Positions 7,112 to 9,175 of a stretch of 29,348 bases of DNA are shown piece after piece. This stretch comes from a virus. Position 1 is the stretch's first letter. The number at the start of each line of letters is the position of its first letter. The stretch covers positions 1 to 29,348 of the IMG/VR virus record IMGVR_UViG_3300046007_010531. One strand, written 5' to 3'. Position numbers and translations under genes: made by a program. The notes beneath the pieces are model-generated. The model made no database searches. It was given only the letters and a program-made list of their open reading frames with translations, and was not told the origin of the DNA.

Positions 7112-7390
7112 TCAATTTTGGCCGGGGCCGTAGAGATGCCGGAACCAGTCGGCCGCAGTGCCGGAGTCAATGCTGCCCTGCATCAGTTCACGCAAGCCGA
7201 CGCCCCCTTCGCCGGCCGCGCGACTGACCAGCTGGAGCCAAAGCCGGTGCTGGACCGGGATGACTTTCCAGCACCGCTCGCACACGGGAAACGTAACGTC
7301 AGCCAGCTGCTGGTCGTAGCAGAGCTTGCCGCATCCCCAACAGGCCGCTTGGTCGTCGTCAATATGACTGAACTCGTTTTGCTTGCTCAT
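7112..7390 (-). CDS. small zinc-ribbon phage protein
   Basis: This protein has 92 residues from ATG 7390, which has GGAG nine bases upstream. An in-frame ATG at 7423 would add 11 residues but lies deeper in the preceding gene. CWGCGKLC and, about 20 residues on, CERCWKVIP give a CxxC...CxxC zinc ribbon. The rest is a helical tail with a Trp-rich stretch. Small zinc-ribbon proteins like this are common in phage operons, often binding nucleic acid or a partner protein. It overlaps the end of the nucleotide-metabolism gene. The specific role is unknown. Confidence 0.68.
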   Translation of the reverse strand: MSKQNEFSHIDDDQAACWGCGKLCYDQQLADVTFPVCERCWKVIPVQHRLWLQLVSRAAGEGGVGLRELMQGSIDSGTAADWFRHLYGPGQN

Positions 7391-8108
7391 CACAAACGGC
7401 TCCACAGTGGGCGTAGCCGGCAACGTCTGTCCAATTATCGCGTTTTCGCTGATGCACCTGCCGGCTCGCCTTGAGCAGTATCATAGCAAGCGCAACTTGG
7501 TACGGCTCGAATCTAGTGCCATCTTTCAGTAAATCCGAGAACAGCCCAGTCCACATGTCGGCCGTGCGCCTAAAGTCTTGGTCCGGCGGTCCGTACTGTG
7601 CCTGGCGGTCGCCGCCGGTGATACGGATGGCCTCCTCCAAAACCGACTCCGTCACCACTGGCTCCTCATGCTTACCGCCGCAAAATGGATACGGCTTGCC
7701 ACAATCGTCCGCAAGGTTTGCCGCCGGTTCCCACTCTTGGGGCTCCTCCCAGACCTGCCCATCCAACTCGAAAACGAAATGCAGGCCCAGCCACCGAGCA
7801 GCCCAGTATTCGCAGCGAGCCCCGACCGACTCGGTCCAGCCATCGAGCAGGCAAACGTGCGTGCAGGCCATCAGTGCCATTACGTCGCGCCGGTATGCAG
7901 ACCGCAGGTCAAACCCCTCAGGCGGCTTGCTCCAGTCGTGGTTTGACGGCAATTCCAAAGGGTCGAAATTGCCTTTTTCGCGGTCAAGGTCTGCTGGGCT
8001 GATCACGCAGTAGCCAGCATTCAGCAGCACGCCGCCGACGCGGTCAAACTCGGGGAAATTGTAGTGACGACGCCCTCGCATCGGGCCGGCTAAATACACG
8101 GTTTTCAT
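7359..8108 (-). CDS. DUF4406 + DUF6378 fusion, putative nucleotide-metabolism protein
   Basis: The protein has 249 residues. Residues 1-110 match DUF4406, a nucleoside 2-deoxyribosyltransferase-like Rossmann fold: KTVYLAGPMRGRRHYNFPEF at the start, RRDVMALMACTHVCLLDGW and a Glu in the S-x-G-A-x-x-E segment. Residues about 155-245 match the phage DUF6378 pattern: RQAQYGPPDQDF, YQVALAMILLKASR and RDNWTDVAGYA. The two domains occur together or apart in phages and are thought to act on nucleotides or their derivatives. The ATG overlaps the stop of the methyltransferase (ATGA), and a TAGG-N6-CCTA site sits over its ribosome-binding region. The domain calls are from memory of the families; the substrate is unknown. 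Confidence 0.75.
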   Translation of the reverse strand: MKTVYLAGPMRGRRHYNFPEFDRVGGVLLNAGYCVISPADLDREKGNFDPLELPSNHDWSKPPEGFDLRSAYRRDVMALMACTHVCLLDGWTESVGARCEYWAARWLGLHFVFELDGQVWEEPQEWEPAANLADDCGKPYPFCGGKHEEPVVTESVLEEAIRITGGDRQAQYGPPDQDFRRTADMWTGLFSDLLKDGTRFEPYQVALAMILLKASRQVHQRKRDNWTDVAGYAHCGAVCDEQAKRVQSY

Positions 8109-9175
8109 TGAGTAGGTTCCTGCCTATCGTTTTGAGGTTCAAAAATATTCAGCAATTTATAAGCCACCACTTCGGCCACCTGCGGAACTATGGCGTTTCC
8201 GAGGCATCTAAGGCGGTCCACTCGCTTGGGAACCCCATGAGCCACTCGACCCACGTCGGGTTCAGTTGCCCACCAGTCGGCGAAGGCGAGTCGTACTCGT
8301 TGGATTTCGTCGCTCCCCGCTCGGCTGCGTAGTCCAAGCGGTCTCGAAGGCTGCCCGTCTTGCCCGCGCCCTTCCCGTCTGTCGCTGTTGGTGTCGGGAA
8401 CAGTTTCACCACCATCCCTAAGTCCACATTCTTGCCCCGCTCCAATTCCCGCCTGGACCCTTCCTCTGTCCGGCTTCCCTTTGTGCCGTCCGTGCTTCTT
8501 GGTGTCGGCCACATTGCTACAGATTGCTCTAGTTTGGAAGGAATCGTTCTTCCGGTTTTGCTCAGATGCTTTTTGACTTGCTCTAGTGTCGGAAGCGACT
8601 CCCTGCACATCGCTTCCGCGGCACGAGGTGTTGGCCACATCGCCGCTCGGCAACTGGGCCACTTCTGCATGCTCGGCGAAAGCTGATTCGCCGTTGCGGT
8701 AGGCGAGAATAAAAACCCTGTCCCTGATATGCGGCGCACCAACGGCGGCAGCTGGTATGCAATGCCATTCACCATCAAACCCGAACGAGGCCAGCGTCCC
8801 GAGAACTCGGTCCAGTCCCCGAGTAAGCAGCCCTGCCACGTTTTCCAACACCACAGCTCGGGGTCGTAATTCGCAAACCAAGCGAATGGCCTCGAAGAAA
8901 AGCCCGCTTCTGGCTCCCTCAAGTCCTGCCCCTTTCCCGGCGTAGGAAATGTCCTGACAGGGAAAGCCGCCGATGATGCAATCGACCCGCTCAAGATTGT
9001 GCCTTCCGCACTGCCGGATGTCTCGCTCGCGGTGCACGTCTGGCCAGTGTCGCTTAAGGATTTTGGTTGCGTAGTCATCGATTTCTACCTGCCACTTCGT
9101 TTCAAACTTTCCGGTGCGCTCAAAACCAAGCTCGAACCCGCCAATCCCCGAAAACAGACTGCCTATCGTGTACAT
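8105..9175 (-). CDS. DNA C5-cytosine methyltransferase (Dcm-like)
   Basis: This 356-residue enzyme has the classical m5C motifs in order: LFSGIGGFELGFE (motif I), GGFPCQDIS (motif IV, catalytic C73), ENVAG (motif VI, 111-115), HIRDRVFIL (motif VIII) and GNAIVP (motif X, 326-331). Residues about 165-300 are the target-recognition region, with repeated D-x-A/ADT-type units common in phage Dcm proteins. It would methylate cytosine at position 5, probably protecting phage DNA from host restriction; the target sequence cannot be read here. The ATG lies 13 bases inside the end of the PD-(D/E)XK-like gene. The +1 frame of the same strand holds a second long protein-like frame, described separately. 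No restriction enzyme is evident nearby. Confidence 0.92.
   Translation of the reverse strand: MYTIGSLFSGIGGFELGFERTGKFETKWQVEIDDYATKILKRHWPDVHRERDIRQCGRHNLERVDCIIGGFPCQDISYAGKGAGLEGARSGLFFEAIRLVCELRPRAVVLENVAGLLTRGLDRVLGTLASFGFDGEWHCIPAAAVGAPHIRDRVFILAYRNGESAFAEHAEVAQLPSGDVANTSCRGSDVQGVASDTRASQKASEQNRKNDSFQTRAICSNVADTKKHGRHKGKPDRGRVQAGIGAGQECGLRDGGETVPDTNSDRREGRGQDGQPSRPLGLRSRAGSDEIQRVRLAFADWWATEPDVGRVAHGVPKRVDRLRCLGNAIVPQVAEVVAYKLLNIFEPQNDRQEPTQ
8113..8126. promoter_or_regulatory. TAGG-N6-CCTA palindrome (site 4)
   Basis: The spacer is TTCCTG. It encodes the last codons of the methyltransferase (RQEPT) and overlaps the ribosome-binding region of the next gene, whose ATG is at 8108. Confidence 0.7.
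8188..9078 (-). CDS. possible overprinted frame inside the methyltransferase gene
   Basis: This 296-residue frame lies wholly within the methyltransferase on the same strand. Unlike a random shadow it contains recurrent phrases (MWPTPRAAEAM, MWPTPRSTDG, FPTPTATDGKG) and FSGRWPRSGLMVNGIAYQLP near its middle. It ends with GGQLNPTWVEWLMGFPSEWT. From memory, proteins with exactly these phrases are annotated as stand-alone genes next to phage Dcm genes. No strong ribosome site precedes its ATG. It could be a true second product, a frameshift product, or only the mirror of a conserved gene. Confidence 0.28.
   Translation of the reverse strand: MTTQPKSLSDTGQTCTASETSGSAEGTILSGSIASSAAFPVRTFPTPGKGQDLREPEAGFSSRPFAWFANYDPELWCWKTWQGCLLGDWTEFSGRWPRSGLMVNGIAYQLPPLVRRISGTGFLFSPTATANQLSPSMQKWPSCRAAMWPTPRAAEAMCRESLPTLEQVKKHLSKTGRTIPSKLEQSVAMWPTPRSTDGTKGSRTEEGSRRELERGKNVDLGMVVKLFPTPTATDGKGAGKTGSLRDRLDYAAERGATKSNEYDSPSPTGGQLNPTWVEWLMGFPSEWTALDASETP

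Follow-up and report, generated by a model that had tools for sequence, protein, structure and literature searches.

A phage C5-cytosine methyltransferase gene with a second, selected protein in its +1 frame, probably the other subunit of the enzyme

Several described methyltransferases bear on the gene analysed here. In EcoHK31I the gene for the small subunit uses an alternative frame within that of the large subunit, as does its counterpart in EaeI. In multispecific C5-methyltransferases of the SPbeta group of Bacillus phages, a tandem array of several exchangeable recognition modules separates motif VIII from motif IX. M.AquI, with its alpha and beta chains, is a natural split after motif VIII. 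The large subunit of M.EcoHK31I holds motifs I-VIII and X and the small subunit motif IX, and the predicted recognition domain was placed in the large subunit (PMC3404938). Phage methylase genes of the ShiLan type contain an out-of-frame HNH gene (PMC11855218).

The locus lies in a virus record of 29,348 bases, called the window here, among genes for a portal-like protein, a terminase, a DnaB-like helicase, and RecE-like and Bet-like proteins. As in M.EcoHK31I, the catalytic chain (alpha) has motifs I-VIII and X, judging by its sequence and an AF2 model, and as in the EcoHK31I layout the small-subunit gene (beta) would sit in an alternative frame inside the large-subunit gene, with selection on the +1 frame and the arrangement counted in 324 loci. 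Unlike in M.EcoHK31I, it is the nested small subunit that carries the variable modules, a region over which the large subunit is near neutral. In contrast to M.EcoHK31I and M.EaeI, the arrangement occurs in phages and prophages of many phyla. The gp32/gp33 pair of Streptomyces phage Vash looks like M.AquI; the window differs from M.AquI in that alpha retains motif X and beta lies nested rather than consecutive. The likeness to the SPbeta-group enzymes is one of module arrangement, since their modules lie in one chain whereas here they are in a second protein in the other frame. The phage methylase genes of the ShiLan type likewise conceal another protein out of frame, but there it is an inserted homing element, while beta is no insertion and is conserved with the enzyme. 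The split itself has precedent in M.EcoHK31I; what is new is how widely the arrangement occurs, that beta is modular, and that selection on it can be shown. We found no description of a nested pair in phages in the open-licence literature. PHROG 1008, which holds beta proteins, is labelled just DNA methyltransferase, without nesting or a subunit role.

Anatomy of the two frames

An earlier note on this DNA had remarked that the +1 frame of the Dcm gene stays open for 296 codons (8188-9078), and had quoted phrases from it that it said also occur as separately annotated phage proteins. The frame, which opens with an ATG inside the Dcm ORF (8105-9175, minus strand), reads as described, with three WPTP/FPTP units, FSGRWPRSGLMVNGIAYQLP and GGQLNPTWVEWLMGFP. 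Separately annotated counterparts do exist: its translation matches PHROG 1008 (3.8e-29), and in Paenibacillus phage Diva the same place is annotated separately as DIVA_50, 'g49 internal gene'. The note gave the second protein no identity; it is likely the motif-IX/recognition subunit of a split C5-methyltransferase. Coordinates are collected in Table 1.

Table 1. Features of the methyltransferase gene in the window
Feature	Position	Strand	Basis or remark
Alpha, predicted C5-cytosine methyltransferase catalytic subunit (Dcm frame), 356 aa	8105..9175	-	PF00145 2.4e-50, TIGR00675
+1-frame ORF of the earlier note, 296 codons from ATG	8188..9078	-	Selection only from about 8922 down
Beta, probable real product, 244 codons from TTG 8922	8188..8922	-	Start 15 codons before FANYD
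Beta conserved N-terminal block, FANYDP...WPRSGLMVNGIAYQLPPLV	8737..8877	-	Third-position freeze from column 261
Beta module 1 (WPTPRAAE...)	8512..8637	-	Module parsing
Beta module 2 (WPTPRSTDGTKG...GKNVDLGMVVKL)	8401..8511	-	Module parsing
Beta module 3 (FPTPTATDGKG...)	8275..8400	-	Module parsing
Beta motif-IX-like segment, GGQLNPTWVEWLMGFPSEWT	8215..8274	-	Near-invariant in 101 betas
Alpha residues 160-284, predicted disordered, near-neutral	8324..8698	-	AF2 pLDDT ~40 and dN/dS
Alpha motif IV, GGFPCQDIS (catalytic Cys)	8945..8971	-	Sequence
Alpha motif X, LGNAIVPQVAEVVAYKLL	8150..8203	-	Beta-frame selection stops here; third-position identity back at background

Alpha has motifs I-VIII in order, with PCQ and ENV (PF00145 match, motif coordinates), and the N-terminal block of beta (8737-8877) overlaps motifs V-VIII. 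In the AF2 model of alpha, residues 1-160 are mostly above pLDDT 85, with a dip near 70-90, and the motif X helix is confident; residues 164-284 are disordered, with no folded recognition domain. The best structural match of the model is M.HhaI (VIA-align Z 23), and the sequence match of alpha to solved methyltransferases (HhaI/HaeIII) runs only through motif VIII. Because of the modelled disorder and the match ending after motif VIII, alpha appears to have neither a folded recognition domain nor a canonical motif IX in its own chain. Searches of Pfam, NCBIfam and PDB sequences with beta returned nothing relevant, and AF2 modelled beta alone at low confidence (mean pLDDT 61, pTM 0.34) with no PDB fold match. 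All 101 betas scanned match PHROG 1008. Immediately downstream, the next ORF on the same strand (7359-8108) overlaps alpha by 4 bases (8105-8108). It matches PHROG 355, nucleoside 2-deoxyribosyltransferase, over its N-terminal half and PHROGs labelled phosphofructokinase over its C-terminal half.

Beta is modular. Its variable region does not align over the full length across relatives. Cut at WPTP starts, the +1 proteins yielded 323 modules with a median of 37 aa; most proteins have between one and five, and the tandem modules are 30-45 residues long. The type of module 2 is also found in five other loci (L016, L113, L098, L107 and L057), at other positions in some, and a type beginning WPTPDANCGNRGPAKDP occurs at positions 1-3 in divergent phages. 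This shuffling resembles that of the exchangeable recognition domains of multispecific phage methyltransferases. The C-terminus of beta, LNPxWVEWLMGFPxGWT (LNPTWVEWLMGFP in the window), sits where motif IX belongs. A profile of this segment had no sequence match among PDB methyltransferase chains, and its identity as motif IX therefore rests on position and on fused forms, in which the phrase shares the alpha frame and immediately precedes motif X (L173, L176 and L003 among them). L173 has ERLNPDWVEWLMGYPISWTD followed by LQSLGNAVVP in a single frame. A Candidatus Megaera plasmid has ERLNPDWVEWLMGYPISWTDGG...LQSLGNAVVP in one chain, motif X right after, and mycobacteriophage RitaG and Gordonia phage CheeseTouch carry fused forms similar to it. 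In Vash (L005), gp32 comprises motifs I-VIII, and gp33, in +1, the modules, IX and X. From their sequences, we read the forms in Vash, Megaera, RitaG and CheeseTouch as probable alternative splits and fusions of one enzyme. The methylase of Vash, and also of Euratis and Samora, is two overlapping genes in different frames, either an AquI-like arrangement or a frameshift site.

We consider it likely that a two-subunit C5-cytosine methyltransferase is encoded whole in this one gene, its subunits in overlapping frames on one strand. Alpha would fold as the SAM-binding catalytic domain, with motifs I-VIII, a long disordered stretch and then motif X. Beta would initiate inside the alpha gene, probably at TTG 8922, and consist of the conserved N-terminal block, one to five tandem WPTP modules and the C-terminal motif-IX-like segment. 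It would bind alpha, supplying motif IX and a target-recognition surface, and complete the small domain and with it the enzyme, while its modules contact DNA; these steps are suggested by the anatomy. We infer that this phage produces beta as a partner that binds alpha and reads DNA, the modules being separate recognition units. The DNA methylated by the completed enzyme would be that of the phage itself, and the simplest purpose would be protection from host restriction. More generally, we lean slightly towards a very widespread class of phage C5-methyltransferases in which a specificity subunit of one to five exchangeable modules lies wholly in the +1 frame of the catalytic subunit, and in which methylation would be reprogrammed by module swaps within a region where the catalytic frame need only avoid stops.

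Beta has neither a sequence nor a structure match to a known recognition domain, which would suit a real protein that works outside the methyltransferase, such as an anti-restriction or regulatory protein overprinted on dcm. We think this unlikely. Eight loci carry the motif-IX-like segment as an in-frame fusion to motif X, and the alpha chain's own recognition region is disordered and neutral. Moreover, the alpha N-terminus lies upstream of beta wherever the contig is long enough; it is absent in two loci only, and there the motif-IX match is 0.4 kb from the end of the available stretch.

The start of beta

Selection on the +1 frame starts near 8877 in the window. The first 52 residues of the ORF that was listed (9078-8923) show no +1-frame selection in the window subfamily, contrary to expectation, although it is present at this place in the second subfamily described below. 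The extent given in the earlier note thus holds from 8922 downward, with constraint from about 8877 at FANYD, and not for 8923-9078. In 17 relatives, a stop shuts the +1 frame at most 26 codons upstream of FA-x-YD. A start codon follows that stop in all 17, in 15 of them at 13-15 codons before FA-x-YD; several show ...aaaggagcaggtttagATG, and the start is often ATG with AAGGAG. The window counterpart is TTG 8922, codon -15 before FANYD, preceded by gggaaaggggcaggac (AAAGGGG upstream, an imperfect SD). Because the starts of the relatives sit where the window has this TTG, beta probably runs from there, 8188-8922, as a protein of 244 residues. Over the whole window subfamily, an SD plus start was not enriched against permutation (0.37 versus 0.32); the internal start therefore rests on the 17 loci in which it is forced, and the exact position is a best estimate. 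The alpha codons for the conserved GKGAGL (about 8923-8940) double as a purine-rich, SD-like stretch before the beta start.

In a second subfamily, of 68 distinct genes starting MNELALFAGAGGG, the +1 protein spans the whole length: at a GC3 of 0.44, 248 of 256 codons are open in +1. In 98% of these genes beta has its ATG 4 nt downstream of the alpha start, and synonymous constraint extends along nearly the entire gene. By its sequences, this subfamily is independent evidence that the +1 protein is probably translated from its own start.

That position, kept so widely, fits poorly with programmed ribosomal frameshifting, by which the Dcm N-terminus would be fused to the beta segment with no internal initiation. 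The halves of the Vash enzyme are in adjacent overlapping frames, and many loci have no stop in either the alpha or the beta frame near the junction, as frameshifting would have it. However, the fusion would drop motifs VI, VIII and X, and the 17 loci have +1 closed just upstream with a start codon next. We regard frameshifting as decidedly improbable and keep to internal initiation of a separate subunit.

Openness and selection in both frames

Related genes were drawn from IMG/VR twice, with a Dcm-frame query and separately with a +1-frame query, and the chance expectation was obtained by shuffling synonymous codons inside each gene. For the window gene alone, the open +1 run is 298 against 161 expected (p=0.004). 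Among 134 distinct genes with the Dcm frame intact, the longest +1 run has a mean length of 257 codons where shuffling gives 125, and the +2 run matches its expectation (70 versus 69). As a guard against bias from the +1-protein query, 52 distinct genes fetched by the Dcm frame only were examined over the overlap, which was taken to begin at the FA-x-YD codon and to finish with the WVEWLMGFP block. The +1 frame is open across it in 51 of the 52, with 1.9 expected, and the +2 frame in none, with 0.1 expected; the sequences are related and the counts are not independent events, and internal controls that share that relatedness (the N-terminal part, the +2 frame and the downstream stretch) show no signal. 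The openness of the +1 frame is far beyond chance.

Third-base identity was compared with codon usage per gene at columns with the same Dcm residue, in pairs of less than 60% protein identity. From motif I to motif IV it is mostly around expectation. Only between motif V and motif X does it climb, at many columns, from a background of 0.25-0.5 to 0.8-1.0. The rise is abrupt at Dcm residues LVRELRPR, which are FAxYDP in +1, and identity remains elevated over motif VIII, the VADT units (which are WPTP in +1) and EPDVGRVAHGVPxRVDRL (LNPTWVEWLMGFPxGWTDL in +1) before returning to background at motif X. One column is fixed as GAC in 120 of 120 sequences. At an Arg column, with 109 CGA and 20 AGA, the third base is invariant in 129 of 129 and the first base free; CGA/AGA and CTG/TTG first-base toggles are silent in both proteins.

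Single differences were then classed in the two frames by the logic of OLGenie, in our own implementation. For the +1 frame, dNN/dNS is 0.25 in the first overlap block and 0.02 in the C-terminal one, and dSN/dSS is 0.27 and 0.07 respectively. The flanking stretches carry no purifying +1 signal (0.60/2.73 and 0.66/7.07), and the +2-frame ratios, about 1 or above, give none either. The Dcm-fetched subset repeats the picture; over both sets, +1 dN/dS spans 0.25-0.31 for the first block and 0.02-0.09 for the C-terminal block. The alpha frame is weakly constrained at the motif-IX-like segment. In the modules, dN/dS is 0.03-0.05 in the +1 frame and 0.75-1.3 in the Dcm frame; clustering by beta similarity could favour beta, but module pairs picked on nucleotide identity alone gave the same ratios, their modules still being cut at beta-frame TP motifs. 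Because the +1 ratio lies so far below the roughly 0.8-1.3 of the Dcm frame, the +1 'shadow' is the protein under selection in the variable region and the Dcm frame is a passenger, which only needs to stay open to reach motif X. An ancient frame swap with the +1 frame as a decaying relic was rejected because +1-frame selection is current between close relatives.

The substitution pattern is that of two proteins, and a second protein is encoded, kept open and selected as protein. The overprinting, or co-encoding with Dcm, that the earlier note had suspected is thereby borne out: all but one of the 52 relatives lack stops in this frame, and the excess conservation at synonymous Dcm sites is strong and confined to the overlap. 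An untranslated shadow, its openness and conservation following from Dcm amino acids and codon bias, could point to the long shadow frames known in GC-rich genes and to the unselected first 52 residues of the listed ORF, but it is refuted by the permutation and substitution tests, with the effect seen at GC3 0.44 as well and the modules pairing a +1 dN/dS far under 1 with a nearly neutral Dcm frame, and we give it hardly any credence. Just as implausible is a constraint acting on the nucleic acid as such, whether as a recombination site, a packaging signal or an RNA structure, for although the shuffling of modules between phages could reflect a recombination role, substitutions show the codon periodicity of the +1 frame, with first-base toggles free and third bases fixed, and in the modules beta codon position 3 varies at 0.49 and position 2 at only 0.14.

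Distribution and consequences

A frame census placed motif IX in +1 of alpha in 324 loci and in the alpha frame in 8. In L162 and L332 the motif-IX phrase is in +2 relative to the alpha N-terminus, possibly because of sequencing errors or a recent frameshift in each. When one genome per species was scanned, 335 relatives turned up in bacterial assemblies, and the matches listed include one archaeal assembly. Of the 80 kept, 76 have motif IX in +1 of alpha. Judged by sequence, the nested arrangement appears to be present in hundreds of phage and prophage genes across many phyla.

If our reading is true, hundreds of phage and prophage 'Dcm' genes are misannotated as single monomeric enzymes, and a codon-optimised synthetic gene made for the Dcm frame would lose the second subunit. 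The locus is a very clear same-strand overlapping gene pair in a bacteriophage, in which selection can be measured in both frames and the annotated frame is the passenger in one region. If the modules are recognition units, they would form a natural, swappable code for DNA-methylation specificity, with a bearing on phage escape from restriction.

Existing annotation touches the nested frame in places. The 'g49 internal gene' of Diva is the beta ORF (L175, 1673-2377), and many of its sister phages list two methyltransferase features at the beta site. E. coli gave a distant match only, the same 98-bp stretch in 2 of 5,426 genomes. In the one E. coli prophage copy that was read (L172, 2874-3635), annotated as a pseudogene, each frame has a stop at about the same place.
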